A stretch of DNA of 64,000 nucleotides from Capitulum mitella (taxonomy: Eukaryota; Arthropoda; Thecostraca; Pollicipedomorpha; Pollicipedidae): assembly GCA_030062745.1 (NCBI GenBank), contig CP099839.1:45396796-45460795 (forward strand). The letters are read 5' to 3'. Positions within the stretch are counted from its first letter, which is position 1, and each line of letters begins with the position of its first letter. The translations under genes were made by a program, and so were the position numbers. This document shows, piece after piece, positions 10,339-40,900 of the stretch. The notes beneath the pieces were generated by a model. That model ran no database searches, was not told the origin of the DNA, and saw only the letters and a list, made by a program, of their open reading frames with translations.

Positions 10339-11235
10339 ATGGCGGCGCCGGTAGTGCGCCTGGCCAGCGCGCTGCTGGCCGCCATGCTGGCCGGTCCGTC
10401 GCCGGCCGACGGCCAGGCGGGCGAGTCCTACTCGTTCTTCGAGTCGGGCTCCGTGCTGCGCCGACCGTACGTGCTGCGCGAGCAGCGGCCGCACGTGATG
10501 CTCGTCTGCACCGAGAACACGGTCATCGCCGAGGTGAATGGTGGGGTGGGACGGTCCTCGGCCAGCCGGCCTTTCGTTCTTTTGTTTGTGTGTTTGCTCT
10601 GACGGACGCCGTCTCATTAGAGCTGCTGCGTCCCTTCGTGTCATGGTGTGAGCTTAAATGCGGCAATTCAGTAAGTTTCCGAGTCTAAATTGGGTGCATG
10701 ATTGGTTCTAAGGGCATGGCAGAGATGTTTCCTTCCCCTTCAGGTGGCCCAAATTGATTGATTGAGAAAGTGTGGTATAACGCGCCGCATCTACGAGATC
10801 ACATTAGCATTTGGCGGTCAAAAGTTCAGTAACCTTAGCTTTTCCAACATCAACGTTTAGTTCCAATGTGAAACCCAGCATTCCGTCTTCCATTCCAGAA
10901 AGTCACTTCGGAAGTTCCTTTCGTTCATAGCACGGACAACGAACGAGTCGTGAGTGGTCAACTCCGGTTATCATCTGGTGGCCCCTTCTCGCTTCCCTTT
11001 TCCTGTCCTTACATCACTAACCCGTGTTTTCCAGCTGCAGTACAGCGTGGCGTCATCATCCCCGGAGGCAGGGCCGGCGCCGCCGGTCACGTACCGCCTC
11101 TTCGGCGCCGACGAGAGCGACGGGACGGCGGCGGGCGCCTGTCCGACGCTGCGCCGCTGCCTCGGCCGGCGAGCCTGCACCTTCCGCCTCGGGAACGAGT
11201 TCTGCGGCACCGACCCGTACCCCGGCTGGCGGAAG
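10339..11235 (+). CDS. oxt: oxt exons 1-2: signal peptide and SUEL/Gal-lectin-like module
   Basis: Exons 10339..10533 and 11035..11235, joined in phase 0. Residues 1 to about 27 form a hydrophobic signal sequence (LASALLAAMLAG) with a plausible cleavage after ADGQA. The rest resembles an SUEL-type rhamnose-binding lectin domain. In exon 2 the spacing CPTLRRCLGRRACTFRLGNE and then FCGTDPYPGWRK matches the second half of that fold (V-RC-G-C-F-N-FG-DP-G-K), continuing into HLEYRSL of exon 3. Insect Oxt is known to carry a WSC carbohydrate-binding domain here instead. A 5'UTR probably occupies the GC-rich sequence just upstream. Confidence 0.72.
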
Positions 11236-14200
11236 GTGGGCCTTGACTTGTACCGCGGCTGGAGGAAGGTGATTCCTTGACCTGTACTCCGGCTGGAGGA
11301 AGGCGGTACCCTGATCCGTACCCCTCTGGAGGAAGGTGCGAGTAGACCCTACTATTGGCCGAGGAAAGATGTTGCGGTTGCTTGAAAAGTTTGGCCTGCC
11401 GTAATAGGCAGGCGGGTGGCGGCGGGCCATTGTGAAGGTTTATCGACTTCCGGGACCAGCGGTGTGATGGGACGTGACAACCCAGGCTTGTGAAGCAAAA
11501 GCAATCATCCTGTTGCCGCGACATACAAAGAGACGGATTCTGCATTGCCACCAAGCTGAGTACCCAGATTAAAGTAACACTGGCGCGGCGTTTCCGCTTT
11601 TGAAGTGGGCCTTTGTTTTGGTGAATGAAGTGGACTTCTTATGTTGATTGCTTCACTACTTCCCAGCGCATTCGGATGAGATCGGAAAAGAGAACAGCCA
11701 AAGGGACAAGGGGTTATGCCCCACTCCCCTTTGGGGTTGGAAATTTGGCATTTCTTTCCTCATCAAAAACGAAAATAAACGGAAATTTCAGGAACTCTGA
11801 CATAAGGTGGCCGAAAGCCGAGGGGTTTTCAGTTTTGATGGCGTAAGTTTGTCCTCACCACTGAATTGGCGAAATCGTGGCTGTCCCTGATTCGGATTGT
11901 GCCGTAGATCATGATCGCAAGAATTGCCTCATGTGGTATCAATCACTGTACTGTAGCCATGGCTGTAACAATCACAATATCTGGCACTCGCTCCCATATG
12001 TTGTGCCTGTCTGACGATGACTTGCTTTCAGACAATGCATGTGATGACGACATGCTTCGAAGACAGCAAATACTCGGACGCTTCCGTAAGTCACATGTTA
12101 CCGCAGTGTCCCATCTCCCTCACGCTTTTAAGTGCGTTCGCCACTTTGCCAGGGAAGGTCTCACGCATACTTTTCAGTTCAGTGGCTTGGCCAGGTGGGG
12201 CGAAAGAGGCCATGCCCCCTCCCCTGGAGGCCAGACGGGCTCCCCTGGCAGCCGAGCGGCCCCCCTAGGGCTTTTGATCCCAGGTCCCCAGTGCTTTAGA
12301 TAGTGTGAGGCGCCCGCAGGGCTCCTTGCACTGTCCTAAAGAGATAGTTAAAGTAGAAAGAGGATATTTTGCGCATTGCAAAAGGCTTATGAACATAACA
12401 AACTGTACTCCAAACATACAGGAGGGCTATGTGCGGTATGAAGAGAGGCCCATAGTACAAATGGGCGTTTAGGGCTCCATGCTAGCTTGTAGGGGGTCAC
12501 TGCTTGTCTAGAGAGAGCCCCCTTGCCGGCCCATAAAGGGCTCCTGTCGGCTTTTGGAGGGCCCTCCTTTCGGTCTGTAAGAAGGCCCCTGCTGACCAGC
12601 AAAGAGACTCCCCGCCGGCTTGTAAAGGGGCTCTGCTGAAGGGTAAAGGGTATCTGCATTTGCCTGTAAAACCGTTCCTGCCGACCTCGCCGGCGCCCCT
12701 CACAGTCGTCGCTTTTTTCCATCATGAACCGTCGTTTTACGCCATGACATGATTTTAACCACAAGAGCTCCCATTGGTTACGAGGGCCCCAGTGGTTACA
12801 AGGCCCTCCCCCATCCCATTTGGCCCCCTCCTGGACGAAATTTGAACTACGCCTCGGTTTTACTTATCCAAATTGTTGGATATATCTGAGCTGAGATCCA
12901 TGTCGATCAACGTGTTTGGCTTTCTGTGTGTCATCCTGATAGCAGTCTGAGAGTGGCACTTTGAGAGAGAGGAAAGTTATTGGGTTGGCGCGAAATTGTG
13001 TGTATGCTATGGCACCGAGGCAGCAGAATCATCCAAGATGTTTTAATTCTATTTCAAAAAATTTCATGGAACGATTGCATAGCTGGATGCATAGCTGGAG
13101 AGGGCTTTTCAACCGCGGCTCTTAGGTCGGACCGTTTACATCATCTATAGAGGACGAAGAAAACCCCGAGGAACCCGTTCGCAGTCAGTTGGATGTCAGC
13201 TATCGGGTCGGCCCGAAACTGTGAACGAGACAGATCGTTTGAGGCTAATGCGGCGACCGGCTGCGACCTGACAAACGATCGTGCCGCCCGGTCTCTGCCT
13301 TCAAAACGTTTTTTAGGCCGGTCCGCGAACAGTGGCTTTGCCGTGCGTCCACTGCCTCAGGTGGTGCACCTGGAGTACCGGTCTCTGCTGGAGTCGGGCG
13401 TGCGGAACTACTCGGCCGTGCGCGTGTTTGAGCGGACCGAACCGGCCGAGCGTGTGTTCGGCCTGACCTGCCCTGACCGGGCGGCGGCGCGGGCGGCCGG
13501 GTACCGCGGCCGCTGCGGCGAGGCCGCCACCGACCCGCTGCAGCTCAGGGACAGGGCAGGCTTCATCCTGTCCAAGTGAGTCACAGCCAGACGCTTGGTT
13601 GATGCCAGACGTGCGCGCGAGCAGAGAGCGGTCAGGAAATGAGCCGTGGGGTATACGAAGTGCCATCAGGAACACAGGCTAATGTCGTTTAATGATGATG
13701 TAACAGCCGATCACGTGCTAGGGTGAAAGGACCAGACCGTTTTTTTTTGTCACCAGATCCACCTCTGGCGGCAGCTGTCCCGCGTGCGTCCAGTGAACGC
13801 TGAGTTCGGTGCAGACACTAGGACGGCGCGTCCTATACGACGACCACTCCGAGCTGCGGGTCTCTCCGCTACCTCCCACCCCACCCCGGCTCCTCACGGC
13901 CGTCTGTGAGCGGACCGGCCTGCCGCTACCGGCAGGGTGCACACGGAGCAGTGCCGCCGCCAGATGAGCGAGATGCTGTGCGCGCTCGAGTACAGCGCCA
14001 GCGCCGAGTGTCTGCCGCCGTTCATGTGGGCCGGCGACGGCGAGCAGCCCGGTCTCAGCCCTCTGGTGACACCGGCAGTCGGCGAGCGGCCGGCTGGCCG
14101 GCCGCACCAGCGTGAGTGCTCGCTGAGCCACCACGGCACTGGCGAGTAACACCGGAACCACACTGGGGTCAGCACTGGGGTCAGCCTTCAGCTCTTCTCG

Positions 14201-17200
14201 GACCTCACACGGAAGCATGGTCGGGAGCGGGAGAGTCTTGGGGGCGTCAAGGAGACCGGAGGTGACAGCAATGAACCGTGCTTTAAACTCCGGTAGCCGG
14301 GCGGAACACAAAGCAACGTGCGGCTTCATCGTCGGGGCCCATTCGTAATTTATCGCCCTTGATCCCTTCTTCTACTCTTCTTGATCCCTTCTTCTACCCT
14401 TGAGCCTCTGCGAGAGCAACAGTGCGCTGCAAGACTGACCCGATCATGATCGCTGCCTCCGAGAGAGGCCCTGCGTGGCCGGAGCGAGTCCGGCCTTCAG
14501 CACGCCCAGCCTTTGATGGGGCGGATTACCGCCGGCTGTTGTCGGCGCACGGCTTTAACAGCCGCCAGGATCAATGTTTAGTGCACTGACCCGCTGCCCT
14601 GCGCCCTAGTCTGAAGGCCGCCTCGCTTCACCTGGGCGTTCTGAACTTTACGACCCGGCCAAGGCATCTGAAACTCCGAGGTCCGAACAGAGGTTACGTT
14701 TACGTCGGTTCCAGGCATGTCTCGAAGAAGATCGGTTTTAGTTTGATATTTGTTTCTCAGGGGTTGATTGGTTGGTTGGTCACAAGTATCCTCTCTTATC
14801 AGAATGGATGCTTAGCTCATCCTGGGTGTCTGGAATTTGGAAGAACCCTGTAAAAAGTGCAGTGCGTTTTTTTTAGTAAATTTGCTCGTGAGGAAGCTGT
14901 ACATAAATGGTGATTAAACAGACGGCTTTCATGATGCGTTTAAATGTCGCCGTGAAACCAACTGCAAGCTAATTTTTCTGCAGACGCTCACATTAATGAC
15001 ACAACTATTTTATGGAACAATCGGCAGCATCTCCACGTGTGGTCATTTGTTCGGTGCGTGCTGAAAATTAACTCTGCATGGACATGTTCTCTGTGAGAAG
15101 ACCCATGCGTCCGAGGGTCGTCCAAAATACGAAGAACTGCGGACACCGGCACTCGCGGGTCCAGACAGAAGCCGTGGAGGCCATTGCTCCCTTTTTTTAA
15201 AGAAACCTATGACTAACATGTCTTTTTGCGTGCCGTTTTTCGATGGTGATGGTAAGGAATTGTTTCCAGGACAGAAACTGATTTACATAAATGCCGATGT
15301 TGAAACATGCCAAGCCATTGGCTGAAATTCGACGAGATTTCAGCATTTCGTTAAGCTTGGTTTAGTTTATTCGACGTGATTTCGGATTTCAGCATCTTAT
15401 GAAAAGAACAGGTTTCACAGATAAAGACTTCGTCCTCTCTTCGAACAGGGTGTCTAGATTCGTTGTAGTGGTTACCTAGGATCATAGGCACGGGAACGGG
15501 GGCGAAGAGGCTATGGTCATTTTACTTTTGGGGACATTTTACACCAGCCCTATGGGTGATAACGTCGTTGCCCTTCCCCCCCCCCATTCCCACATACACA
15601 CACTTTTTGGGGATGCTCCTACGCTCCTGCCAAAGGTGAATCCAAGTCATATCAGGAACGGAACCCGAATACAATCTCTGTCTTGCCAGAGGTTGATGGA
15701 TAAGGCCGGCAACTTAAACTGAACTAGACTGGCAAGAACTCAGCGTTCCAACCTTGTGACCCACGATGGAGATTCTGATCTCGGTGATTTATTGAGCACG
15801 GCGATATATCCTGTGGAAAGGCTAGCCTATTTCAGTCAATAAGTCGAAGCTTTCTTGGTTGATTTAATTCGGCATTGGCAGTAGTTCCGGTGAGACGGTA
15901 TTTTTCGCATCAGGAACTCGAATTTTTCCTTGCTTGAGAATATTGGTTTAGGTGCAGCACTAAAACCATTTGTAATGCTGTTTTTCATACGGATGGGTTG
16001 TGGTTGTTCGAAATCCACCACTGCGTTTGATCTCTGTATGTCTCTCTGGAGTCTAAAGAACAAAAAGAGACTTTCATTGAAAACATTCCGCGGTCGTCTT
16101 TCGCCCTGGTAACTTCGGCCGCTCCGTACTCCTCAGCGCTGCATCCGTCACTGGTGCCGGCGAAAATCGGCTTCTACATACTGGTGCACACCGATTTCGA
16201 GGCCTTGGTAAGTACCTGCCGGATGTTTCTTCAGAACGAAACCTTGGGCTCTATCGTCAGATCTCAGCTCCAGAGAGGGAACTTTTTTACAATGTCATTC
16301 AAAACAGTGTTATAAGGGAACGTAATTTCCACACGATATCTGCTCCGTCGAAGATGGAAAAACGTTGTGCTCGGCAGGCGACGAGCGCAAACGTTTGGAT
16401 TCCTTAACGGACACAGCACTCAGGTGAACGAACGCTGAGGGTCGCACCGGACCTGCTGAGTGGCCACCAGGAATCCGGCCTGGTCCCCTACGCCGTCAGA
16501 TGGAGCTGCTCGGTCTGATGTACGACCCGGCGCACCTGTACGTCATCCACGTGGACCGGCGCGGGACGGAGATGCGCCGGCGGCTGGAGCTGGCGCTGGA
16601 CGACAGCTACCCGGACCGCAGCCGGCTGCGGCTGCTGGAAGAGCGGCGCTCGGTCGCCGCCTACTGGGGCTCCGACCGGATTTTGCGCGCTGAGCTGGAG
16701 GTGCGCTACGAGGTCCGGGGGGTGGTGGGGGGTGGGGGCACAAAACACAGCCGGGGCGAAGTGGAAACGTGGAATTGGGTCGGGTGGGTGATGAGGGCGT
16801 TTCTCTTACGGGACCACAGTGGGAACGGCAGTGAGCTGGGTGGCTTTGTGGAGACATAGCACGAACGCTCATTTTGCCGCTTTCATGTTTTACGGACCGT
16901 TTCCTTGATCGCTCGCCAAGCATATCCGGCTGCTGAGGATGGGGTTGAACGTATGACCATAGGTGGGCATCGTTACTAAAAAATGTAACTTCGTTACTCG
17001 TTACTCCGTTACTCAGAAAAGCCAGTCCGTTACTCGTTACTCCGTTACTCTGCCTTAAAAAGTAACGGAAGTTACCGTTACTCCGTTATTCCGTTACTTT
17101 TGAAATGCAGTGAAAACCGAGCGAACGCGGGTTTTAAGTCTTTTATGCTGCTTTGTGGTTGTAAAACGCATTCCATATACAAAGGGAAGAAACAAAAAGC

Positions 17201-20200
17201 GCTTACCCCAAACACTCCGCTAGCTGCCCACTGACCTCACCAGCCGTTGTAGAGTCGGCGGCGCCGGGACAACAGCCGCGGCGGGTATTCTACCACTGTG
17301 TTAGCCACAGTGTTCAAACCAACGAATTCCTTTCATTGCCCGCGGCGCCGACGGAGCGGGAACAACCGGCGCTGGAGCGGACGCATGCAAAATGCGACGA
17401 ACAGCGGACATCTATCGACTGGGTTTGATCAACAATGCCTCTCGAAGTATCCGCCCTGAACATAATGGTCTCCGTACAGAGCTCGTTTCGGTCTCGCGAA
17501 CTTCCTGTTTTGTTTTGAAATTATGTGTGTGTATTAGTTTGTGTACGTGCGCGTGCGTGGAGGTAAGATTCCTGATACCCCTGACGTTTTTTTAATACCA
17601 CACGACGAAGGACTCAAAAAAACGTGACTGATATGGATTTTATTATTGTGAAATAAAAGACTAACAAAGGTGCTTTAGTACCTCTTCAGCACCCTTGAAA
17701 AGACAAATTAGCTATAAAAACATGGTCATAAGTAAGATGCAACGGAGGATGTTAGCCGTTCACAAGTGGAACATTTTGGAACGATGACGTGACCTGACCT
17801 GACCCCTGTGAAAAGCCAAAATTGATATCAATGAATTCGCTATTGTCTTACGGTTCAGTATATGTCGCTTAAGTTCAGCTTTTTAGGGACAAGGTATTGT
17901 GTCTATTTACCTAATTTCAAGGACGTGTTTTGACCTTTCATGGCGTCTGGTGGCCTCAAAATTGATCTGAGGTCAAAACTCTTGAATGTTTTCGTCTCAG
18001 TTTGACAAAACCTTTCCGCCGGTGTTTTCCTTTTTTCCGTGCGATATATGGGAGCCGAGATCCTGGGAGGTGCGGAAATCCGCGCCCCCCACCTCCGGCC
18101 GGGAAAAGGGCATTCTGAGCCCGGCCGGAGAAGGGTTAAAAACACTTCATTTAACCCTATTCCCTGTGGGGGGGGGGCAGATTCTGCTACCCGTGTCTTT
18201 TTGCTTGTCGCTCCCACACTGTTTGCCGCAGCGCCACAAGATTTTCTGGCATTTCATGGAATTGATACACACGTGTTTTGTCAACATTTAAAAAAAAAAT
18301 CGGTCCCGAAGAGGCGGTTCCAAGCCTCCGTTTTCGGCGGTAATGTGCTGTACGTGAAGCTGCAAAGTTGTGCGGTTCACTATCGTGACATTTTGAGTAG
18401 AAATAAAGATCACTGACTGATTTATAAAGTCATACACATCCTAAACAATGCGTATGCACACACATTTTCAGGCGAACGCACACCCAGGTACTGAAAAAAT
18501 GGGGGAGCACACTATTGTGCTTATGGTGCCCTTCCAATTTTGTTTACCTGGATCCACCTCTGCGCTACATATAAACTTAAACTGGCTTGCTAGTTGTACA
18601 TCTGATGTTTATATCACCCAAAACAAACAAAAACAAAGGAAATTTCTTATTTCAAAAATCACCCTTCTTGCCCTCCCTGGAACTGCCTATGGTTTTGTAT
18701 TTTAAATTTCAGCTTTCGGTATATAAAAGACTTGACATTCCAAGCTGAACCGTGTTATTCCCATGAAAATTGGTTGGTAAACACGGCCGCAGTGACCTTT
18801 CAAAAATCCCCAAAATTTTGGAGTTTGTTTGCCCCACGCGCTATTTTCGCAATTTTCGAATTTTTGGGGACCGGAATTGGAGATCTCGTTGAAACATATT
18901 AAATGGCATTCATCCCATCAACATTGGACGAATGAATCTCGAGATCTCTGGGAGGGCGGGGAGCGGAGGGAGCAGAATTGGTAATCTTCAACTTTCGGCC
19001 AATGCATATTTTTCGAAGGTGCAAAAGTGACAACGGCTCATATCATGTTTGAGTTTGGGTCCTCACTTCTGCGTCTACAAAAAATAATGTGTCAGCCGAA
19101 AGGTGTTTCGGCCAGTTGATATTTTTTTTCGGGAACGCAGAAGTGGTAACTCGAATCGCATGGACAATGTAGCCTGTCCTCCAAGTTAAAAATGATTTAA
19201 CCTAACCTAACCTAAAACCTACTGTATGGTTGCAGGGATTGCCCTAGATGGGCATGTAAAGCTAATTTTTTGTTAGGTTCAATTTGCCTTTTTTTTTTTT
19301 GTTTGGTTAGCTCGTATTGGTTGAAGGCAAACATGTGTCACCTGAATCAAAATTCAGGAGTTACCTAACCAAGTCAGTTTACACATCCAGTAGGGGCCAG
19401 TGCTTAGAAAAATACCTGAATGGGCTAAATTGTTCACACAACTTGTGTTGCCACTTCCGCGTCTCCAAAAATTACGCGTAAGCGTCGGCCGAAAGGTAGA
19501 TTACCGCAGATCTGCCCCCCCCCCCAGGGTAATGTGAATCTCACTGCCTGCAGAGAATATGGTTAAGGCAAATAGTCCAAGCAATAGTCGACAAGCTTCA
19601 TAACTATGCTTCACTACTGACAACTTATTGTGCACATTCTTTTCTCACCTGGAAATACCGTAAATAATGCTTCCTCTTGATATGTGCCTTTAGTTTGAAA
19701 GGCTACTCTTGTGACCCTTGATTATAACCTCTTTCGGTCGGCACAGGACATACGTAAAAATGGCGTTTTTCCCCTCCTCCTTAAACTCAAAGTACGTTTC
19801 TAGATGTGGCCATGGGTGACCCAGACCGGGCTCGTCCTCTGTCTTCAAAGCTGAGGCACCGTCGGACTCGGAGTCAAGGTTTTCGACCTCTAGTGGCGGC
19901 GTAAAGACGCCTTGATGAGACATTTTAGTGTCAGGTAGTTAAAATTTCAGGCCAGTCAAGAATCAGTCACCACTCCATCGCCCCATGGACATCACATATC
20001 CAAGGCCATGGCGGCAGTAATCATGTGCTCAACAGCCTTGAGTGATCTTGGCGGGGAACCGTGTGGCGGTGGTAAGCAATCCGTGACTGACTTGAGACAA
20101 CATTGAAAACTGCCGTCAACTGGCTGATCCAGTATAAATGACAATAACTTTGATATCTTTTAGCCTGAAAAATGACGACTGGTTAATTTCTCATTTTAAG

Positions 20201-23200
20201 TCATATCAAACTTACGCATAATTTAATACTTTTGTCCCAAAAGAGACCAAAGTCAGCTGGCCTTTACACTGAACCATTGCCGCCAGCTTGCCGTCAACGT
20301 TTATCAGCTGACGAATATTGTCAACAAGTCGACTCCGCGGTTGTCAGCTGAGTGCGCGCCCAGCCGCGCTTGTATCGCCGCACGCTATTGGGTGTTGGCT
20401 ATTCAAGTAGCCAATGGGTGTGCCGATGCAAATGAAGCCGGGCGTTGTCTATAAGGAGTTTAAAAAGTAACGGAGTAACGGAGTAACGGACCAAAAAGTA
20501 ACGGAGTAACGGACCACAAAAGTAACTTCCGTTACTCAGTCCGTTACAGTGAAATAAAAGTAACGGGTCCGTTACTCCGTTACTCGAAAAAGTAACTTCG
20601 TTAGTAACGGAGTAACGGAGTAACGGACCAGTGCCCACCTATGCGTATGACAACGTGTCTGCGTGACTGGACGCGTCTTCAGTATCCGGACATGTCTGCA
20701 GTGTCTGGAGGAGCTGATGACGATGGGGTTGAACGCGTGACAGCGTGGCTGCGTGACTGGACGTGTCTTCAGTATCCGGACGTGTCTGCAGTGTCTGGAG
20801 GAGCTCCTGCGTATGGGCCACTGGGATTTTGCGGTGCCGCTGAGTGGTCGCGACTTGCCGCTGAGGCCCGTCTGGGAGCTGGCCGCCGCCTTAGCGCCGT
20901 ACCGCGGCAGAAATCTGCTCCAGCCGGCAGAGCGCAAGTTCATGCGGCCAGGCGAGGTGGACAGAGTCTTTTCCATGTGAGTCTGATAACTGGGCCTCTC
21001 TCGTCAGGGCCTGTGGGACCTGTCACCAACAGTTTAGCTGGCCAGGAACGTCATGCCTGTGATCCTGGTCTGTGGTCTGTGGTCTGTGGTCTGTGGTCTG
21101 TGGTCTGTGGGTCTGTGGTCTGTGGTCTGTGGTCTGGTCTGTGGGTCCACTCGTCTGCGGAACTACATTATGCTTTTTCATCAGAAATGTTTTTTTATTG
21201 GGTACCTATATGGAACGTTCAGTGAGTCAGCAAAGATATAGCCGGAATAGATGACTGGTGACCCTAATTGGACGTATCTGTAGCCCCAAAACGCCTTTGC
21301 GTCTAAGACCGTGAAGTCTTTTTGACTTATTCTTGACCCCTTCATTATGGCGGTTATTGTTACTTGCGCATGTCACATGTTCTGCTTGTTTCATTGCGTT
21401 TTTCCTGATCGACGGCAGGTACGGCTGTGAAGGTTTCATCTTTAACGCCTCTCGCCCTAGCAACAAAACGCTTCGGCCGAATATTCCCGTCTACGGACAG
21501 TAAGTCAGTAATCGATGCACGCCAAAAGTCAACGACCAATGAATTGATAAAAAGCAAGAAGAGTTACTGCTGCATCGTCATGTTTCATTCTGTCTAAATT
21601 TTGCTAGCATGTGCTTAGCTTCCCACTACCAAATTGACAAATAATGACTTGATTAAACCCAATACCAAATGACATTACCAAAGAAGACATAATGTCACAT
21701 CTGAATCCGGTATGAGATGCCACTGGCGGCCGCAGTTGTAATCATCCAGTGGCACAGATTGTTTGTGCAACTCCCGGGCTAATCCTTCCGGGTTCGCAAA
21801 ATGCCCAGACTGATAGCAGGGGATAGCTGCAGCCGTGCCTCACTATAAGAGCTCGGACAGTCGTCCATGCTGTGTGTGGACCACCTCAGTGGCCAACTGC
21901 AGCCGTACTTCACTATGAGTTTGGACGGTCGTCCCTGCTGTGTGGGACCGTGTGACTAAGATCTGACGTCGGCAGCTCCACCTGGAAGGCGCTGGACCGC
22001 CGGTTCGCCGAGTTTATCATCTCGGAGGTGCCGCTGTCGCCGCTTAAGTGGTCCAGTCTGCTGCTGCGGATCATCATCATCCCGGACGAGCACGCCTTCG
22101 CCACGCTGCTGATGAACTCCCCGCTCAAGTGAGGCCGGCGTGGGCGCTGTGCTGGTCTAGGCAGGCTTCTGGTGTCGCGGCCTGCTGCGCAGGACTCCAG
22201 CAGTGGACGCTAGGAGCAGGGCTGGGTACTTGACACACCGCTCGCCCGGAGAGTCCTCCATAGTCCAGAGGAGCCTTTGCGCCTGACGTGTTTTGCTGCG
22301 ACGCCACTCGCAGACATGTGGCTCGTTTTGTCCGCCCGGTTTTGTCAAGCCGTATGAAATGCGAGCGCATTTCAGCACGTCAAAAACACACGCGGTGAGC
22401 GAATCAGACCACGCATGAAATTCAGCGCGCTCAGCGGCCTCTCACAGCCTCAGACGGAGCTGCATAATCTGCCTATCGCCATCGCGTCTCGCTCGGCCCG
22501 CCCTGGACAGCTGAGCTCACACAGAGCCCTGTTTCTCCCGACGGCTCGCTCGCTTCCCATGCAGCCCGTTCGGCGGCCGACTTCCCGTCCGCCCTCAGCC
22601 AGACCCTGCTCCAGGCCAAGCTGCACCATCCCAAGCGGTTCGTGGGCGAGAACCAGGACCGACTGTGCCGACACCAGGACGACGTGGAGTTCTGTGGCCG
22701 GGTGAGACGCCGCGAAGGCCGGCGTCCTCTGCTGGCATGGCCGGCCGGCGGCGTTTAATTGCATTCCTCGTCGGCCTCTCTCCTGGGCTCTGTTAATTAG
22801 CCTAGAATAGGGCCGACTTAATTCATTTTCAAATTGGCCGGCCGGGAAGTGGGAGAAATGGCGCGGGCACAGGAGGCGAGACTTGAAGTGTGGCCAGAGT
22901 GTTTTGTCCGTCATGTTGTGTTAAGGCGGCCGGCGCTGCAAAGGCTCAACGGAAATGTTGGCGTCGGTCGGGTTTCAGTGATTTGGCTACGAAATGATTG
23001 CATTCGATCGGTATTTAAGCGGATTTATCATACGGGAAGACGAGACGCGTTCAGAAAATACAGAACGATCGTCGCTTTCCTTTTTTGTTGTTGTTGTAGT
23101 CGCCGTGAACTGCGGCCCGAAAATACCGTGTGAGACCAAATCGACCTGCGTTTGTTGACGGCACGGCTTTCTGCGTCCAGGGTCCGGCCACTGTGGAGAA

Positions 23201-26200
23201 GAAGGACTTGGACCATTTGCGGAGTTCCTCGGGACGGTTCTTTTTCGCCCGCAAATTCCCGGCGAAAATGGACGATCCCGTCCGGGAGGAATATCGCGCC
23301 GTCTTCGGCCGTCCGTATTATGACAGCATCCTGCACGTGTTCACAACGTGGCTGGTGAGGTCAGTACGGACGGCGCACCGCGCCCAGAGACGCAACCAGA
23401 GCAGCGGCCAGAAATGCTTAACGAGAGAGTTTTGTCAGTACATTAAGGGAGTAGTAAAAGATCGGTACAGCATGCATCTGCAGGGGCGCAGACGGAATTT
23501 TCTTAAGGAGGGAGAGGGCGGAGCTCAGAGTGAACTGAAATCATACGAAAACCATCTGCCGGGAAGACGTTGTGCAATGGTTTTTACGAAAAATGCGGGC
23601 CTAAGGGGCTGCGCCTCTGCGCACCTGGATGACTCCTCAGCAAAATTAAAAGTCGCATACCGATGCAATGGTCTCTTTCCGTGCAGTACTGACACTGAAA
23701 TCTGACGTATTCCTGCGGTACATAAGCATCCCTTTATGTCTGTTATTTAGTAAAGTTTATTTACTTTCCGTTTTTTAGATATATGGCCAAGATTAGTATA
23801 GTGTGGATGAAGCTAGGTAACAGCTCTCAAGAGGAGGACATCGTGACCAAACCGCTGCAGGTATTTACAACCTCTAGTTAGTGCTCTTACTTAAGCATTT
23901 GCATATAGTTGGTGTTCTCATGATCTGAAATGTTTGTTTCAGCCTGCTCATATGTGTTCGTCCTCTTCTGTGGTTTCTTCCCGAACTGGTGCTCATAGAT
24001 GTTGCCGAGTGAAGCTTGATTTGAAGAGTGAGATTTAATTACAAATATGAAAGATGACTTTCACAAAAGCTGAAGAACGTAGGTGAATGATTGGATAGGG
24101 ATTTCAGGACTCACTCATCTTGCCAAAGCGACATTGGCAATAGGCTGGGAGCCTGCTGAATAACATGTGATTCGTCTCCCTGGCACACTGGACGTGGTCG
24201 TCATTATCCGTCAGTGGGTGATGTACCACTTATGGATGATGGATATAAAAACAGCACAGAGTGACTACGGGTACCTCTTTCAGATATTCATCAAAAACGT
24301 TACCCTCCTTAAAAAAAACGACAAAAATTGACGTGGTGCCGATTCGCCTACGCCTGTTTTGCGTCCCTATGAATCCGGAAACAAATGGTATGAAAAATAT
24401 GGTGTCAAAAATGCACTTAATTGCTGATTTGCGTTTGCCTCATTCCGTTCACAACGAGATAACTTAAGTTGGCCTTTCCAGGTTTATCCCAGGTTCGAGC
24501 CGTTATCAGAATGCTGCAATGTGCTGCACATGAGGGAAAACCAGGCCATCTTCTCATACGCATACATCGTGGATTTCGCCGCGGTAAGAATATAACCAGA
24601 TGGCAAGTGATGTGAACCAACTCCATTGCTTTGGGAGTAGGTAGCTTTCATTATTTGGAGAGACTGTGGTAATGAATGGGTATAAAATGAAGGCACTTGC
24701 TAATAAATCTGAATACGTGATTGCCAAATGCTACGTTTCACCAGACACCAAGTGCTTTTTGTTTGACAGTGGACAGAATTCTGCAACAGACGAACACAAA
24801 AATTCGCATAAAAAGACACATAGGAAGACAACAGGTGGATAACACTAACAGCAGGCGAAAAGCTATCTCATTATTGTCCCTGTCCGTAGTATCGACCCTT
24901 CCCCTCATCCCTTTTGGTCAGTTTCCCATTCTCTGGCCACTGGAGCCGACTCAAACCGGTCCTGCCCCATGGCCTGGTGACAGTGCCGCGTGCGGTCGCC
25001 GGCAGGGCGGCACGTGGTACCGGTCCCGCGTGCTGGTGACGCCGCCGGTGCGTTGTTTCCCGGCGGGCCACCTGCGCAGTGTCCGGGTCACCACCAGCCC
25101 CGCGCCGTACCGCGGCCGCCTCGGCGGCCAGATGAACGCCCCGGTGCCGTACCTGCCGGCCGGCGCGGCGCCGCTGCTCGTCGAGCTGTGGTTCCACGTC
25201 CCGGAACGGCACACGGCGGCTGCGTACGACGTCTGCGACCGGCAGCGCCACAGGCAGACGGTCCGGTTCCCGCGAATGAACGTCACCGCCAGGACGGCCG
25301 ACCCGGTCCGGCTCAGCATCCAGCTCTGGGAGGGGCACACCCTGAGGTGAGGGGTCCAGCTCTGGGAGGGGCGCACCCTGAGGTGAGGGGTCCAGCTCTG
25401 GGAGGGGCACACCCTGAGGTGAAGGATCCAGCTCTGAGAGGGGCACACCTGAAGTGAGGGGTCCAGCTCTGGGAGGGGCGCACCCTGAGGTGAGGGGTCC
25501 AGCTCTGAGAGGGGCACACCTGAAGTGAGGGGTCCATCTGTGGGAGGGGCACACACTGACGTGAGAGGTTCAGCTCTGCGGACACACCCGAGTGAGAGGC
25601 CCAGCTCTGGGGGGACACACCCTGAGGCGAGATAGAGAAGGGTCCAGGACTGGAAAATCTTGATACAGCTATGAAACAGGCATGTGGAAGTGGCGCGGCA
25701 AAAGGTGAATCTCTCCGACGAACTCATGGTCGAGCGAAACCAATTATACTACATGCAAAAACGCCGTCCTGTATCGTTGGTTTGATGGCCATTTAAATAT
25801 TGCAGATGCCACCGCAGCAAACCAATCCAAAGCAATCACGGCGCACCAGGCGGTGGTGGATCCCGCTTGTTCGGAAATCGAGCGCTACTGACATGAAGCT
25901 GGGGAGTTTCGCCGACCGCCAGCGATTTTCAGCAGCCGTACGTTCCGTCCGCCGTCAGGTGTTCAACCACGAAAGAGATCGAGTGGAGCGTGTCGCCACC
26001 ACGGCGCGGGTCGTCGCCCTGGGCCCGCTCGGACCTCGCCATGGCAGCCAACGTCACGCTGCCGTGCGGAGACCTGTCGCCTGGCCAGCGGCTGCTGCTG
26101 CTGCACGACGTGAGCAGCGCGCCCGTAGGCGCGGGACGTGATGGTACCCCCAACGGTGGCTTTGGTTCTACCGGAAGACGGCATTGACTTACTGTCCTGG

Positions 26201-30406: not shown

Positions 30407-31974
30407 CTAGAGGTGATTGGCGGCGTCGTTCGGGTGCGGCGCGTGGCCCGGCTGCAGCAGGTCGAAACGTTGCTTCTGTTTGCGCTGCTCGCTCATCTGT
30501 CGGCAGGGGAGCGGGCGCCGCGGGCGGTCAGGGCCCGGCCGGACCATCACACTCCGCGGGCCAGGCCCAGCCGCCGGTCGGCAGTGCGCCGTCCCGGGCA
30601 GCGGCACAAAACTGTACAGCACTACACGACTGGAAAACATCTACTGGGGGTTAATATTTCAAAGAATTGTCTTTCATTCTATGCTGTTATTGCTCAGCTC
30701 TATGTTGTGATTCTTCAGACTGGATGCCATAACGCTGCCATTGTGAAAAAGTTTGTCGCAATTCACTGTCATCGGTAACTGAGAACATTTTCAGCTTTTT
30801 TATAAAAGCCGCGAGTTGTCCCCACCCCATCTGTCTATGAACGGAGCACACAAGCTAGCCATTCATCTTGGGGTCCAAAGCGGCGCCTTTTTCGAGTTAC
30901 TCGCTGCTGCGAGGTCCCAATCCTGACCTGCGCATGTGTTTTCGATCCACGGCCATTTCCAGCCCACTCAAAGCCGATTCGCGGACGTCCCAAGGTAACA
31001 TCGCCCCAATCTATGGTCACCCTCAGCGCACCCGGTCCCGATCCACGGCCGTTCCCTGCTCACCTGGTCCTCATCCGCGGTCCTCCCCAGCTCACCTGGT
31101 CCTCATCCGCGGTCGTCCCCAGCTCACCTGGTCCCGATCCACGGTCATCCCCAGCTCACCTGGTCCCGATCCACGGCCGTTCCCTGCTCACCTGGTCCCG
31201 ATCCGAGGTCGTCCCCGGCTCACCTGGTCTCGCAGCTCGGCCAGCTGGTCGGACAGCGTTTTCACCAGGCCCATGGTGGTGTCGAGCTTGTGCTGCAGAC
31301 TGCGCAGGTCGTTCTGTTCGCCCTCTGCCTCGCCCGTGGTCAGCGACATGGCGCGCATACGCGGGAACCAGTCCAGGTTCTTCTCCTGCGGCCGGCGGCG
31401 CGCGCGCCCGGGGTCAGGGCTGGCTCTCCTCCCACTCACAACGGATCCGGAGAGGCCGGAATAGATCCGATTTGGCGCCAATTTCACGCACCGGAGCGTG
31501 CTTCTCACGGGTCAGCGACAATCCGTGGTCGGCGGTAAGTTTAGAGCCGAGTCTACAGTCCGCTGCAAGGCTCTTGCACTGCAGGGGCTACGGCTACGGA
31601 TTCAGCATTACGTTTGAAAAATGCAACTAAAACTAAACGAGGTATAGCTAAAATGTTCCCAACATTCAAAGAAACCCTCCTGACTTCACAACGTATCTTT
31701 CCCCGGTAAAAACGGCATCAACAGGCTAAATGTGGAGTCTCGCGCGCCATGGAGCGCGCGAGACTCCACAAACTGAGCCCCGCGTTAAGCAGGTGACGGC
31801 AGTTGCGCAGTACCTGGACCATGTTGTGGACGTAGCTCTCGGGTCCAGTGAACTCTGTCGACACCTTCACCTTGATCAGCACGATAAAGTACAGGTAATG
31901 CCACATGTTGTGCTCGTTCTTGACGTGTTCCTCAAATGTGACCGATTTATTGTCGAAGTCACTCCGCTGCAGTC
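30407..31974 (-). CDS. Itpr: Itpr exons 34-36: C-terminal cytosolic domain
   Basis: Exons 31814..31974, 31224..31385 and 30407..30496. Exon 34 completes the zinc-binding module (two Cys in exon 33; EEH..NEH here) and reads [14 protein letters not shown] and TGPESYV. Exon 35 encodes the C-terminal coiled coil ([13 protein letters not shown], then [13 protein letters not shown]). The terminal exon reads [14 protein letters not shown], ends NDAANHL and stops with TAG. The exon 35 donor CAG/GTGAGC is repeated five more times downstream in a 32-bp minisatellite. Confidence 0.95.
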
Positions 31975-34900
31975 CTGCGCAACGAAAAGCAAAAATACTC
32001 TCAGATCATCGCAGCTGCTCGTCCACGGTCACAAACCAAACTACTGCTACATAACAATACAGTTTTACAAAGCACAAAAAACATTACAACAGCAGCAAGA
32101 CATGCTTTGAAACGAGACGAAAGCAGTTTACGCGGCGCCATGAACTTCCTACTATTACTGAAAAAGGACGAAACAGACTCCATTCTAAGAGCTGATACGT
32201 ATGGCTGATATTCTTTCAGTTTGGACAAGCAGTAGACTGAACAGCGAGCTGATCAGTCACCAGCGGCGACCACCTGCGAGGTCACATACAAAGGAACGAC
32301 CAAAGGAGTCCCAAAACTCACAGTCTCTGAGCTACCACTCAGGAATGTATGTCAGGAAGCCCAACTCGTAGAGGTTGAGGCATTAACAGATAAAAATCCC
32401 CCTACTGCGCGAAACCATATGACCACATTCAGTTCAATCCATCCAAAACGGGCGTCACCCACCGCAGACGAAGCACGAGTTCTTGAGGATCTCTTCCTTC
32501 TGCTGCTTGTCGCTTCTGAGATCAGCGAAAGTGTCAATGATGACACCGAAGATGAGGTTCAGGACGATGATGATGACGATGAAGAAGAAGAGCAGGTCGT
32601 ATATCACACGGGCCGCGAAGAGTGGGTCCTGCCGGCAGCGGGCAAGGGCGGCGTCACACGGGCGGCTCACCGCCACACCACAACCAGCCACACCCCACTG
32701 TTGAAATGACGCCGTCCTGTGGCAAACGAGGGCCAGTGCACGTTCAAAATGAGACCGATGTCTTGATTTTCATATCTCTGAGTTTATTACAGACGGCAAA
32801 GCAGCCGTTCCGCCATGACGGCGGATCAGAGGCTTATTTATCGCAATCAAGCACAGTCAATAATGGGACGATGCGGAATACAGAAGTCAGAAGAAACCTC
32901 AACCGGCCTCAATGACGCAGCCCGCGCACAAAGGTGCCAACGGCCGCCACACTGTACCGGACAGAGCACCGTCCTGCTGCGGCCGACGGCGGCCACGCCG
33001 GGCCTGGGTGCTCCGCACCTTGCTGCTAGGGGAACGGAGAACGTCGCCGATGCCGCCGCCGTTCCGCAGGCCCTGGTTCAGCGTGGTGACGATGCACATC
33101 ATGAGCGTCTCGCAGGCCCGCTCCCGCAGCTCCAGCTCCTCGCCGACCACGGCAGCAGCCGTCTGCGGACTGGCAGCTGCTGCCGGGCAGGCCAGGTCAG
33201 GTCACGTCACAAGTCACGCTAATGCTGATCAAGTCAGGTCAGGACAGGCTAGATCAGACCGCCCTGCCTGCAGCCAATGTACCTGCTGACAGTCGCTCAA
33301 AGGGCCGCTCCGACCGCCCAGATGCAGACGGGACAGTGACGTCACAGTCCGAACAGCAGACTGCCATCCCGCCCGCTCGCATGCAGGGACGACCTGGTTC
33401 CTTTTTCATCCATAGTCTGCGGGAGGGGCTCTGGGACTAGGCGCCTGGCTAGGAATGCAATATACGGCAATTCCGGCTGCCCGATTGCGTCTTAAATGAA
33501 ATTACCCACAAGTTAAGGAAGCCGGGAAAATTAAGACCTCTCACACCAGCAATCCGCCAAACAATCGCCACGTGTTTTCAAGTGTTGCAAACACGATTCA
33601 AATACGGAACATTAACACGCGAACTTTGGAGAAGAAAGTCCCGCAAAAGGGCAGCACTAGTCCGGATCATCTTTTTCGCCGTGGCCGGTAGCTCGGGAAG
33701 CACGGCGCTGCTCTTCCCGCCCTGTCAAGACCGGCTCGAGTCACCTCGGCCCTGGTTAGTCTGCCTCACAGTCAGCTGCCAGTCAGCCAAGAGAAGGTCG
33801 TGCGGACTACCACACGGTCGTGTCAATCTTGACGAAACGGAAAACTCTCGTCATAAAATCTGCCGTTTCCCCGGAACTGCGTTACCAGACGCGAGGTTCA
33901 AATGCCCTGCAAGCTCTGACCGACAAGGACTGTCTCGTAAAAAATCCCGACGCAAATTAGTGGGATTCAATGAGTAAAACATCGGAATTAAAACAAACTG
34001 AAAAAGGAAGCAAGCAACGACTAAGTAAAAAACACATTTATTCCAACACAAACATATCTCTACGTTACTGCAGCGGTAATTCAAATTTCATTTCCAACTT
34101 GTTTTTTTCTGCTCCCGCAGCAGAGGCATTCGCCGAGCCCCTTTTATGTCACGAACTTTCATAGAAAATTAATGAGAATACAGAATACTGAAAATCAAGG
34201 TCCTCGAAAAGAAAAACAAACGCCAAGTTGAAAAATATTCCAATGGCATGCCACTAGAACACAACACACAGTGAGACATTAAAGCAGCACTTATTTCCAC
34301 ATTGCAGAAGTGTTCAGCCACCTCGCCGACCTGTAATTCTCACAAGAGCAAAGGAAAGATGTTCGTTACGTAAATTTACTACTGAGCTTATACATTAGGT
34401 ATCTCTCAACCCCTGAGTACCCCAAGCCTCTCACACTCACTGAAAAAGACCCTGAAAACGAAAGAAAACATGGAAACGACAACCCCTCAGCCCTCACTAT
34501 CCCTCTGCCCTCGTCCTCTATCCTTGGGTCTTGTGCAATCCCAGTCTCACTCTATCTCTGCCCCAGTCCGCCTATACGTCTCCGTCTTGCTCTAACCCTC
34601 CGTTTCGCTTTTCAACATATCTCCCTGTCCCGCGTTATGCCTCTGTTCCGCTCTGGCTCCGTTCCGCTCCGCCCCTCTGCCCTGCCGCGGTACTCACGGC
34701 GGCTGTACTTGAGGGCCGGGTTGCTCTCTGCCTGGCACGCCTCGCTGGCGTCACACCAGCCGGAGCCGCTGCCGGCCGCCGCCTCCAGCACCTCTTCTGC
34801 CACTTCTGAGGCACGCAGACGGACTCAGAACCACACACGACACACAACACACCGCACGGAGGAGATGCACTTCGAGTGAGACTCCACGGTCCGTCTCCAC

Positions 34901-37900
34901 AGGTGACGACACCCCGTCTGCTGTGGACATCTGGTCCCAATTTACCGACAATGGCAGAACAGGCACAGTATACTGGCCAAAAGGGGGAAGCACTTGGGCG
35001 GACACTGTAGTTCTGAAACACAAAGTCACAAAATCTGCACAAGGCACTCTTCGTTTCGGTTAGACGCATTATTCCGAAAAGCTTACAAAGAATGTGAGTG
35101 ACAAGGGAGGGCTACATCACGTGATCAAATCGCACCTTCGGCAAGCATCGTCAAAGGATTTAAGGCTGAATGATCAAGAGGCAGTACAGCCAGTCAACCT
35201 TACCCGGAGCGTCACAGCGTATTTGATCGAGACATGTCTGTTTGAAGTCGCACACAAGTTCGTGCGCCCCGGCCATCCGAACTCACCTGCCCGCGGACTG
35301 ATGCTGACCGGAACCACGAAGTCGTCCTGGAAGAAGATGAAGCCAATGATGGAGAAGAGGTAGACCAGGATGAGCGCCAGCAAGGCCGTCAGCAGGATCG
35401 AGCGGCCGTTCTTGGTGACCGACTTCATGACGTTCAGCAGCGTCTCCTCCCGGTACACGACGTCAAAGAGCAGCACCGAGTAGAAGAAGCAGTGCGACAG
35501 ACCGAACACGCACACCACGAAGTAGCCGAAGTGGTAGAGCAGTTCGTAGTCGGAGACGCGTTGCCGGAAGGTCTTCTCGAACGAGCCTTTGTTGCCCATG
35601 ATACTAGCCACGTGAATACCTTTGAACACCAGCTGAAAACAGGGCAAAACCGCACGTAAGACCCGCGCCGCATTAACAGAAATGAAGGCAAGGCACATGT
35701 TACTAGCTTACACGGCAGGGGTGGGATCGCCGAAGAGCACTCCCTCATTTACATCTGGAACATGAAAATCTGTCATGGTCTCAAAAAGTTCAACACCATG
35801 TTCCGCGGGATTATGAACATTCACAAGATTGCAGCATTAACATCGTATCAGCGACACGAACACGTCCGTCCCGCTGCTTTACATCACCACGAGGCTGCCA
35901 CCACGCAGCGAAACACCTCCGGACAGGACCCCGAGGACCAGGCGGGCCACTCACGTTGATGAGGCCGACGATAAAGATCACCGACTCCAGCCCGGCTGTG
36001 AAGATGAAGATGCCCAGCACGCAGAGGAACAGCAGCATGAACGAGACGGCGCCCGGGAACCAGAAGGCTCCGGCGGCGGCCACGAACGTCGCCGCCCAGG
36101 TGAACGTCATCCAGCTGCCGACATCTGTAACACGGCCAGGTGAACGTCATCCAGCTGCCGACATCTGTAACACGGCCAGGTGAACGTCATCCAGCTGCCG
36201 ACATCTGTAACACGGCCAGGTCAACGTCATCCAGCTGCCGACAACTGTAATACAACCCAAGCGTCATCCAGCTGCCGACATCTGTAACACGGCCAGGTGA
36301 ACGTCATCCAGCTGCCGACATCTGAAACACGGCCAGGTCAACGTCATCCTGCTGCCGACATCTGTAACACGGCCAGGTGGACGTCATCCATCTGCGGATA
36401 TCTGTAACACGGACAGGTCGTCATCCCGCTGCTGACATCTATAAAACGGCCAGATTAACGTCATCCAGCTGCTGACACCTGTATGTTTATACGTGTATGT
36501 ACGGCCAGGTGAGCATCATATATAGCTACCCATATTAGGAATAACACCACATGGGCGAGATGCAGTTGTCGACATCCTTATCCGGCCCGCCGGTCGTCTG
36601 CCCTTACTTGGCCAGTCGTCGGCGAACGGATAGCTGACGGCCACCAACAGGTTGATGATCACCGCCAGGAAGAACAGCACGTGCGACCACAGGCTCATGT
36701 AGTTGCTGATGCGGAACAACAGCGGCTGGCCTGCCGGAAAGGCCAGGAGGAGCGCTGAGTCGCGGGTTAAACGCCAGCCGACTCCGTCCACAGACCGAGT
36801 CTCCGCCGCCGGCACGCTCAGGCACCAGACCGCGTCACCGCCGGGGTTAAACGCCAGCCGACTCCGTCCACAGACCGGGTCTCCGCCGCCGGCACGCTCA
36901 GGCACGAGACCGCGTCACCGCCGGGCGGTCCGTCCCGGCCCGGCCCGCCAGCTCACCTCGCAGCTTCTTCTGCCACTTCATCTCGTCGAAGAGGTAGTCG
37001 CACTGGTCGAAGAAGCCCTGCACCTTGGAGCCCTGCTCGTCGCGCTCGACGGTGGTGTGCACGCGCGTCTGGGTCTCCTTGGTCAGGTACTCGCAGATCT
37101 CCGGGATGGGGAACACAATCTGCTCCATGGTGCGGTCCAGACGCACGATCTGCCGGCAGGGGCGGGTACCCAACGGCTGAAGTCGGATATGGTGGCTCAG
37201 GGTCCACAGGGCAGAGAACCACATATCGCGCGATGTCTGATGACGAATTCATCCAATCCGACAGTAGTGATGCGGTCAAACCCATGACATATACAGCCAA
37301 CCTATTCAATAGCACAGAGAACCTGACTAACAGCCTTCATCAACAAACGGCCGTGACAGGACCCCAGCCGGCTGACGCGGCCGGCTTGTGATCAGCTGGT
37401 CGGCCCAGGCCGGCGACATACCTCGATCTGGGCCGTGTGGGTGCGGTAGTACTCCAGCGCCCGCGCCATCTTCGTGTCGAGATTGTCTGTCTGTCGCAGC
37501 AAGGCCTGGAGCTCGCGGTTATGGTGGGACAGTTGGTGACACAGGATGTAGATGTTGTGCCCCACCTGCCGGCGGAACGCTGGGATCAGGCGGGAGGTCA
37601 ACAATTCAATAGAACATACGCGCACGCGAACACCACGAAAATCTCCGGCCGACTAGCCGTCACATCCTGTCTGAAAGCTGCGTAGAAGGCTCTTCCGCCC
37701 CAATGCTGTCAGACAGTCACCACCAGAGCCCGATCTGGCCACCAGGTGTCGCCGTGTCCGCGAGCAGCGTGGACTTACCTCTCGGGGAGAGACGCCGTCA
37801 TCGCCGTCCGCCGGGTCGTCCTCCGTGTCGTCCACCAGACCGTCCTGGTAGTACGCCCGACACGCCACCTCCAGCTGTCAGGCGATACACACGCAGACAT

Positions 37901-40900
37901 GTCAACACATACAGCGACAGCCATCTCTCGTTGGTACGAACTGAACAGTGGCTTCCGTCACATGCTGCCACAACAAACTACGTTTAATAGTACTCAGGAA
38001 AATATTTCAGTTTTCCAGGTTACTATGGTACAAAAACTGATGCAGAAAATTTGTGACGGAAACTACTTACGAAGAAAGAAAAAAACAGAAGCATCTGCGC
38101 AGACTTCTAGCATTTTTATCGTAATATCAGATCGATCTCAAATGAGGCCTAGCACTTCAAGGCAAGCGGCTCCGCATCACATCATCCACGTACTACTGGG
38201 GCTCCCAATTTTAACGGTGCACCTGAACGCGACAACCAAGACCAGCACAGTCCTCCATGCTCACTGTGGCGTGCGAGCACTGACGGCATGTGATCGAGGA
38301 ACCGTTACAATGAGATCATTGCACGTGCCGGCGAATCGGCGCCGCTCACTGACCAGCTGTTTGGGGTTCATGTTGCTCAGGATGCGCTCGGCGTTCTCGC
38401 TGTCGGCGCGCGACTCCATGATGGCCAGCAGCAGTTTGGAGGCGTTGTTCTTGAGGTCGAGCACCAGGTCCATGCGCGTCTTGCCCAGCGGGTTGATGTC
38501 GTTCAGGATGAGCGCGATGATGATGTCCAGGCCGTTAGACTCGTGCGTGGCGATACAGTTCTGGTTCTCGTGGCACGGGCCCTGAATGGAGAGAACAAGC
38601 ATAGCCGCGTTAAGGAATACCGGTAAATATTTCTGCAATGATTTATGCATCACTCCGTTCTCACTAACATGTTCAATCTCCCAAGTTCCTGGACACGTTG
38701 GCTTATTGACAGGACCGGTGAATACCACTTAACCGTGTGGTCACACCACATGCTCAGAGGCTGCTGCGGACTGCCTCGACCCTTGGCTGCGTGTTGGCAC
38801 AAGCCATGCACTGTCGCGGTTTGCTAGCCTCAGGAGGCAACTGACTCCACATGACGTGGCTGCCGTTACGCCTTGATCCGCCCTCTTCCCTCCCCCGGCC
38901 CTTTGACAGGTCCTCGCACAGCAGCGGCGGCGGCCCACCTGGCAGTACTCGGTCAGCGTTTTGAGCGTCTGCACGATCAGGTGGACGTTGTGCTCGTTGA
39001 TGTAGAGGCCCAGCAGGCCCAGGCCGCCCGTGGTCGAGCCGCAGATGCAGTCCAGGAACATCAGCGTCTCCGACACCAGGTTGTACTTGCTTTTGTTGTT
39101 CAGATCGCGCAAGAAATTCTGCCAACGAGTTTGATCATTTCAGTATGTGAACGGCAATGGATGCTACATGAACAAAATGGCCGAAAGGAATAAAAAGTAC
39201 AGTACCCAACACCAGTCTGCAGCAGAAAGGCTGAACCACGCGCAGACCATTTCTGACGAGGATAATGTGAGTGTCTCTTGATAAAAAGACAGCAGGAATT
39301 AAACAGATCAGATTCGTACGAGGTATTATCTGCGTCTGCATCACTCCTACATCACTCCTACATCGGTTCGACCCGTATTTTGATCTTATCGCCGCTGAAA
39401 GCTTTCAAAACACGTTCAGACACAGAAGACCAGTGCAATGTCATCAGAATCCCGCCCCCTTTACTGGTCTCCCTGGCTCCCCATCCTGGGCCGGTTGGCG
39501 GCGTGCCCGGACGTCGCCCGGGCCGCTGGTGAGCTGCCCACCTGCAGCTGGGCGTTGTGGTTCTCGCAGAGCAGCTGGAGGAAGCGCAGGATCGGGTCCA
39601 TCACCATGACCTTGGTGGAGAGCGCGTTGTCGTCGTGTTTCTCCTTGACGCGGTCGGCCCGCTCGGCCAGCATGTCCACCAGGGCGTCCGACGTGGGCGA
39701 AAGACCACCCTCGCCCTCCTCCCCTGACAGACAAGATACGTCAGCGTCACGTGACTGACCGAGAACACCGAGCCCTCCTCCCCTGACAGACAAGATACGT
39801 CAGCGTCACGTGACTGACCGAGAATATCGGGCCCATCTCCCCTGACAGAGACGATACGTCAAGGTCACGTGACTGACCAAGAACACCGAGCCCTCCTCCC
39901 CTGACAGAGACGATACGTCAAGGTCACGTGACTGACCGAGAATATCGGGCCCGTCTCCCCTGACAGAGACGATACGTCAAGGTCACGTGACTGACCGAGA
40001 ACACCGAGCCCTCCTCCCCTGACAGAGACGATACGTCAAGGTCACGTGACTGACCGAGAACACCGAGCCCTCCTCCCCTGACAGAGACGATACGTCAGCG
40101 TCACGTGACTGACCGAGAGCACCAAGCCCTTCTCCCCTGACAGACAAGATACGTCAGCGTCACGTGACTGACCGAGAGCACCAAGCCCTCCTCCCTGACG
40201 ACACGGCACGTCAGTCACGTGACCGCCCGAGACGGCGGAGCCGGACCGTGTACAGCAGGGGTCACCGGCGGTGCCAGTACCGACACAAACATACCCGGGC
40301 CGTAACAGCACGAACGCGATCTGTTCGTGCTATTACGATTCGCAGAGTGGCTGGACTACCGTCTCCTGTAAACGGCGGCTGAGACTAACCGACATCAGCA
40401 AAAAACAGTCGCACGTCACGCGCAGGACGCCGTGCGATGACCGGTCTCTGGCGCAGCACTGACCCTCCAGCGTGCTGCGCACGTTGTGGTAGGCCTGCTG
40501 GGTGCTGCGCGCCGCGTCGTTGAGCTCGTTGCGTAGCTCCTCGGTCATGGTGAGGCCGTTGGCGCGCGGCGTCAGTCGGCGCGGCTTCTGCTGTTTCTCC
40601 TGCTCCTTGCCCTGCTGGTCCTCGGCCGACTTGGCCGTGATGTCGGCCGTGTTCACCGTCACAGTGTTCTTGATCTCGATCTGGGCGTCCCGCATTTTCT
40701 CCGAGAACACCTGATGGCGGGAGGGGGTCGCCATCAGCTCCGCCCGACTCTCGTAACTGATCCTGGCACGGATCCCTAACAAAACCAACATCAGGCATTA
40801 AAACGGCGCTGCAAATGAACAATAAACTCAGGACCTCAAAGCGCCGAGTGTCCCAGAATTATATACTATTACACACATCCGTCGGCGTCAGCGCAGCCGC

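Follow-up and report, generated by a model that had tools for sequence, protein, structure and literature searches.

Minisatellites that cross exon-intron boundaries are known from amphioxus as 'mirage' minisatellites, and their original description is said to be that of Canestro, published in NAR in 2002, some twenty years ago. In amphioxus (PMC3087553, PMC3902484), the repeat spans the exon-intron boundary in several unrelated genes, namely Adh3, the globin genes BflGb6 and BflGb9, TnC, and PGBD5, the units measure 10 to about 160 bp, and data on somatic instability are reported; for the globin mirages, reverse transcription PCR (RT-PCR) suggested normal splicing (PMC3087553). Internal tandem repeats at exon-intron boundaries, with units of about 30 bp, are also described for human segmental duplications, where some of them form new introns (PMC2812944). 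Here we analyze a 64,000-nucleotide stretch of the Capitulum mitella genome (contig CP099839.1, positions 45,396,796 to 45,460,795; hereafter the window), in which tandem arrays re-copy splice sites of two genes, ITPR, encoding the IP3 receptor, and a gene that we call oxt.

These arrays are a known oddity in a new place, since their anatomy matches that of the amphioxus mirages in the features tested, and what is new is a second phylum and a null model based on the repeat seed. Many copies, though not all, bear the AG or GT of the splice site, and both donors (11235, 25346, and 31224 in the window, and 26661 in a sampled block of contig C1) and acceptors (36124 and 39723 in the window, and those of a homeobox and a UBA-domain exon elsewhere) of unrelated genes are involved. 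The original prediction, made from the sequence of the window, knew of no described system of this kind, and this is contradicted by the amphioxus mirages (PMC3087553, PMC3902484). The two cases differ in that the amphioxus mirages belong to a cephalochordate and come with RT-PCR and instability data, whereas ours belong to an arthropod, are read from the sequence of one assembly, and were counted against a null. The human repeats resemble them in unit size and in their position at exon edges; however, they concern recent paralogs and often alternative transcripts (PMC2812944), while in C. mitella the array apparently stays in the intron and the genes are not known to be segmental duplicates. 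A literature search on crustaceans, covering the accessible parts of papers that included those on a prawn lectin, on Parhyale, and on barnacle genomes, returned no report of splice-junction arrays, and the earthworm metallothionein and telomerase papers describe no splice-junction repeats in their available parts.

Arrays at exon edges of ITPR and oxt

Exon edges were rebuilt independently of the repeats, by joining reading frames across introns through phase-consistent donor/acceptor pairs, and most of them could be joined in this way. The ITPR exon pieces align with the solved ITPR1 structure (PDB), piecewise within residues 729-2743, and this alignment also fixes the donor edge at 31224. 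The other gene gave a weak match to XYLT1 (E = 1.5e-16) and a match to Pfam Branch (E = 3.5e-8), from which we take it to be a diverged GT14 gene; judged by these similarities, 'oxt' appears to be a reasonable name. The two genes are unrelated and lie on opposite strands, as had been predicted. The exon numbers used here are those of the original prediction.

Repeats in the window were detected using Tandem Repeats Finder (TRF), and direct sequence comparison was used as well (Table 1). The six arrays that the original prediction had placed over exon edges do repeat those edges. Five of them were listed by TRF, while the sixth, the 90-bp pair in oxt, is absent from the TRF list and was recognized from a 24-mer at the predicted acceptor that recurs, with 22/24 identity, 90 bp upstream. 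This acceptor is ambiguous, with weak splice-site scores, and, like the oxt edge at 11235, it is predicted and not joined to a neighbouring exon. Three arrays are of donor type and extend downstream into the intron, and three are of acceptor type and extend upstream. At the four joined edges (oxt 25346; ITPR 31224, 36124, and 39723), the exon-side copy carries the reading frame on. The oxt exon ending at 25346 joins in frame to an exon at 25959, and the first decoy of its 36-bp array, if used, would lead directly into TGA, as read from the sequence. In the 40-bp array of ITPR, two AGs fall within one unit, so that the exon start may be either of two positions. Two ITPR introns consist mostly of minisatellite (47841-48117 and 36764-36925) that ends about 24-36 bp before both splice sites.

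Table 1. Genes and tandem arrays of the window, and junction arrays of the sampled blocks (window coordinates unless a block is named)
Feature	Coordinates	Strand	Basis and relation to exons
ITPR (IP3 receptor)	30407..61969	-	Exons from mid-protein to stop codon; some predicted only
oxt, putative diverged xylosyltransferase / Core-2/I-branching (GT14) gene	10330..27072	+	Exons found; several predicted only
34-bp x3.8 array	11212..11338	+	TRF; donor of oxt exon 2 re-copied, exon end 11235
90-bp x2 duplication	about 20686..20865	+	Over predicted oxt acceptor, about 20776; weakest case of six
36-bp x8.9 array	25319..25631	+	TRF; oxt exon donor re-copied, exon end 25346
32-bp x6.4 array	31015..31229 (TRF 31024-31229)	-	Donor of penultimate ITPR exon, exon end 31224
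40-bp x9.9 array	36096..36483	-	TRF; acceptor of ITPR transmembrane exon, exon start 36124 or 36114
59-bp x8.9 array	39713..40232	-	TRF; acceptor of ITPR exon, exon start 39723
80-bp x2 array	36764..36925	-	TRF; wholly intronic, about 32 bp from ITPR donor
28-bp x9 array	47841..48117	-	TRF; occupies most of ITPR intron, crosses neither junction
36-bp donor array	C1 block, 26661		Cysteine-rich exon, without Pfam match
71-bp acceptor array	C2 block		Homeobox exon, Pfam Homeodomain (E 3e-21)
Array of 73- and 93-bp units at acceptor	C2 block		UBA-domain exon (E 1.7e-8)

Genome-wide searches with two of the arrays (25319..25631 and 39713..40232), performed with a program that skips very common words, matched in each case only the array itself. 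Since both are unique in the genome, their units are local in birth and not dispersed repeats, and the earlier claim that the arrays have unrelated units is supported for these two. Misassembly or miscalled exon edges could in principle mimic the whole pattern, as repeats assemble poorly, the data consist of one assembly, and the oxt edges at 11235 and 20776 are predicted. However, we give this explanation almost no credence, since the ITPR1 alignment backs the ITPR edges, the copies differ among themselves, and the pattern recurs on other chromosomes.

Recurrence elsewhere and counts against chance

The junction-array pattern extends beyond the window locus to unrelated genes on other chromosomes. 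Four 50-kb blocks chosen beforehand, one on each of contigs C1-C4 and each at 3.0 Mb, were analyzed using TRF and a simple gene finder for which the ITPR and oxt exons of the window itself had served as training set; some of the predicted block exons, e.g. in the C3 block, were called on both strands and are possibly spurious. The 13 predicted exons (24 edges) yielded three clean junction arrays (cf. Table 1), and of the exons concerned we take the homeobox exon to be 'BarH-like', while the UBA-domain exon is presumably 'UBAP1-like'. Another candidate, at 41393-41444 of the C2 block, was discarded as CGG-rich low complexity. The 20 kb holding the 5' half of ITPR, with 22 predicted edges, yielded no junction array, nor did eight dynein edges, where arrays of any kind were absent, and no clean one was found at 39 nominal edges of cuticle genes (20 loci, L024-L043). 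Three nominal junction overlaps in the cuticle sample were dropped: those at L036 and L030 turned out to be in-frame coding repeats within one reading frame that the gene finder had split, and that at L039 was discarded, without translating, for its 18-bp period inside predicted exons.

The C. mitella assembly comprises 477 Mb in 16 contigs, and 60 kb separate the window from the end of C1. Minisatellite density (period at least 20) is 25 per 100 kb in the window, 40 in the 20 kb adjoining it on the outer side, and 12-18 in the four interior blocks. A subtelomeric effect was nevertheless rejected as the explanation, for although array density is higher near the chromosome end, the interior blocks also carry junction arrays.

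The null model was built on the positions of the unit, i.e. the seed, which was distributed randomly over sequence outside exons, since an edge can be crossed only by an array whose first unit already spanned it; for this reason, placing entire arrays at random was rejected as a null. In the window genes, which have 81 edges and 16 arrays of period at least 15, six arrays crossed an edge versus 0.79 expected (p = 6e-5), the window tests being post hoc in that the window itself prompted the idea. The counts at period at least 15, but not those at period at least 20, contain a marginal array (55761-55804) whose overlap with its predicted exon measures about 5 bp, and the 90-bp pair was left out of this figure and of the near-junction counts, having been added by hand only in the pooled-tail calculation. 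Outside the window, the blocks, the 5' half of ITPR, and the cuticle loci together gave three arrays versus 1.07 expected (p = 0.09), and all sets pooled gave eight versus 1.86 (p = 7e-4).

Further comparisons were restricted to arrays near junctions (period at least 15; cuticle and dynein loci left out). Within 1000 bp of junctions, 9 of 26 arrays crossed an edge in all sets (2.0 expected, p = 6e-5) and 3 of 10 outside the window (1.0 expected, p = 0.07), while within 100 bp the figures were 6 of 9 in the window (2.2 expected, p = 0.008) and 3 of 5 outside it (2.3 expected, p = 0.43). Overall, three arrays outside the window stand against 1.0-2.3 under the near-junction nulls (p 0.06-0.43), which is not significant. 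A control with 24-mers at 77 window junctions revealed a nearby intron-side copy in 5, compared with 5 to 9 for 24-mers taken 30-130 bp into the intron, many of these copies coming from the junction arrays themselves, and 0 to 1 for 24-mers taken 30-70 bp into the exon. Arrays are thus concentrated toward exons. Within the window, junctions are likely favored about twofold or more, a bias that is unproved elsewhere; only when the window that prompted the idea is counted can the excess at junctions be called firm. The original prediction had spoken of a locus-wide habit and had proposed to look for an excess of arrays at junctions; the three arrays in the pre-fixed blocks show the same feature at further junctions, and the excess, sought here in the window and the sampled loci, is present in the former but did not reach significance outside it under the stricter nulls.

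Register, decoy sites, and origin of the arrays

The splice junction had also been regarded as the strict seed of the repeats, and this view is not supported. In eight arrays, the exon share of the unit was 0.58, 0.78, 0.19, 0.72, 0.19, 0.21, 0.40, and 0.58, and the position of the junction within the unit fits a uniform distribution (Kolmogorov-Smirnov p = 0.76), with no preferred register; the wholly intronic arrays at 36764-36925 and 47841-48117 are counter-examples of another kind. These two are ordinary intronic minisatellites, which equal the junction arrays in unit size and differ from them in having no splice site in the unit. Because junction positions are spread within units and ITPR also holds ordinary intronic arrays, we favor random tandem duplication filtered by selection. 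The junction arrays are probably, though by no means assuredly, mirage-type minisatellites, that is, ordinary slippage or unequal-exchange arrays near exons that are tolerated at junctions since the outermost copy would be the one spliced. A short tandem duplication would arise via slippage, which we infer here, or via end-joining, and would then presumably expand by unequal exchange; where the first duplicated segment by chance spanned an exon edge, the extra copies of the splice site would land in the intron. Splicing would continue to use the outermost copy, on the exon side, leaving the protein unchanged, and the array would be near-neutral and hence tolerated, whereas an equivalent event inside an exon would be removed.

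Several results weigh against this explanation: (i) six arrays versus 0.79 in the window genes may mean that a model of purely random and tolerated duplication is too weak; (ii) the fixed blocks alone, under a whole-block null, gave three clean arrays versus 0.28 expected (p = 0.003); (iii) within 100 bp of junctions, 9 of 14 arrays crossed an edge in all sets versus 4.5 expected (p = 0.01); and (iv) pooled splice dinucleotides mismatch less than other positions (5/98 versus 219/1274, p = 0.0009), in a comparison where the copies are not independent and ungapped matching gives central columns an advantage. On top of random duplication, a modest bias that is exon-proximal or linked to junctions may be at work. 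A mutational process that is itself linked to junctions, and seeds the arrays through transcription- or R-loop-linked breaks or through a repeat-prone motif common to CAG/GTGAG and YCAG/G, would be in line with the excess in the window and the blocks and with the pooled sets, in which 8-9 arrays stand against 1.9-4.5 expected, depending on the null and the period cut-off. We regard such a process as unlikely, however, since, outside the window, the excess loses its significance with the negative samples or the near-junction nulls, the edges of the ITPR 5' half, of dynein, and of the cuticle genes yielded no clean case, the register is not fixed, and intronic arrays likewise adjoin exons.

Conservation of the decoy sites was scored in eight arrays, of which the window holds five, with the 90-bp pair left out. 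The extra copies kept GT in 16 of 21 cases (2/3 in 11212..11338, 7/8 in 25319..25631, and 6/6 in 31015..31229) and AG in 28 of 28 (9/9 in 36096..36483 and 7/7 in 39713..40232), and most decoys of the ITPR donor at 31224 and acceptor at 39723 match the authentic site in splice score. Such figures would suit selection that retains the arrays because decoys act in buffering, as back-up sites, or in splicing regulation. We find this improbable: in acceptor arrays, the adjacent exon columns are conserved about equally to the AG, one donor array lost GT in 3 of 4 copies, and decoy splice dinucleotides are not clearly better conserved than their neighbours.

The arrays might also be relics of intron birth via tandem duplication of exon segments (Rogers-type intron gain). 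The amphioxus authors put mirages forward as a route to new introns (PMC3087553), and in humans introns can arise from repeats at exon edges (PMC2812944). However, an array of this origin should run from donor to acceptor, and all five arrays checked stop inside the intron: those of ITPR end at 31015, 36483, and 40232, with the next edges at exon 30496, donor 36608, and donor 40464, respectively, and those of oxt end at 25631 and 11338, with the next exons at 25959 and, as predicted, 13361. Since the arrays do not span introns, we consider it highly improbable that they record intron birth.

Tolerated random duplication remains the explanation that we prefer. The broader proposition, that a genome-wide process preferentially turns exon-intron junctions into minisatellites, with a noticeable share of junctions carrying decoys, and that the same has happened independently in amphioxus, is possible but doubtful. 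If junction arrays were frequent in two distant animal groups, they would serve as natural experiments on spliceosomal choice between equivalent sites; frequent arrays would also give rise to annotation errors and would directly test the idea that intron gain is fed by tandem duplication at splice sites. Should they represent no more than the tolerated part of ordinary minisatellites, they would still show at how little cost introns take up such repeats.

Other features of the locus and the genome

An oxt intron contains part of a dispersed repeat (window 20000-20400) for which 662 candidate places were found; all 40 scored places, on many contigs, are 98-100% identical, and the repeat is probably a young mobile element. 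A possible nested gene is predicted within an ITPR intron, on the opposite strand (window 54283-55447, plus strand), and in Pfam a portion of this gene weakly resembles amiloride-sensitive (ASC/DEG-ENaC) channels (E = 6e-5, below the curated cut-off). About 1.7-2.3 kb to the left of the window lies a plus-strand exon of GILT, the lysosomal thiol reductase (Pfam E = 8e-22). PF00379 (Chitin_bind_4), which we take to be the arthropod cuticle-protein family, was matched by 150 of 150 scored candidates in this genome and by none in 14 control genomes. Together with the number and size of the contigs, a high GC content, and a Drosophila-like wording of ITPR, this family speaks against an amphioxus host, which the published mirages had first suggested; a search for GFP came back empty and is uninformative on this point. 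Finally, two dynein heavy-chain matches, at C3:21807091 and C1:18870185, are intronless open frames of 4720 and 4278 codons, besides which at least nine intron-containing dynein heavy-chain places exist, and the two are perhaps retrocopied genes.
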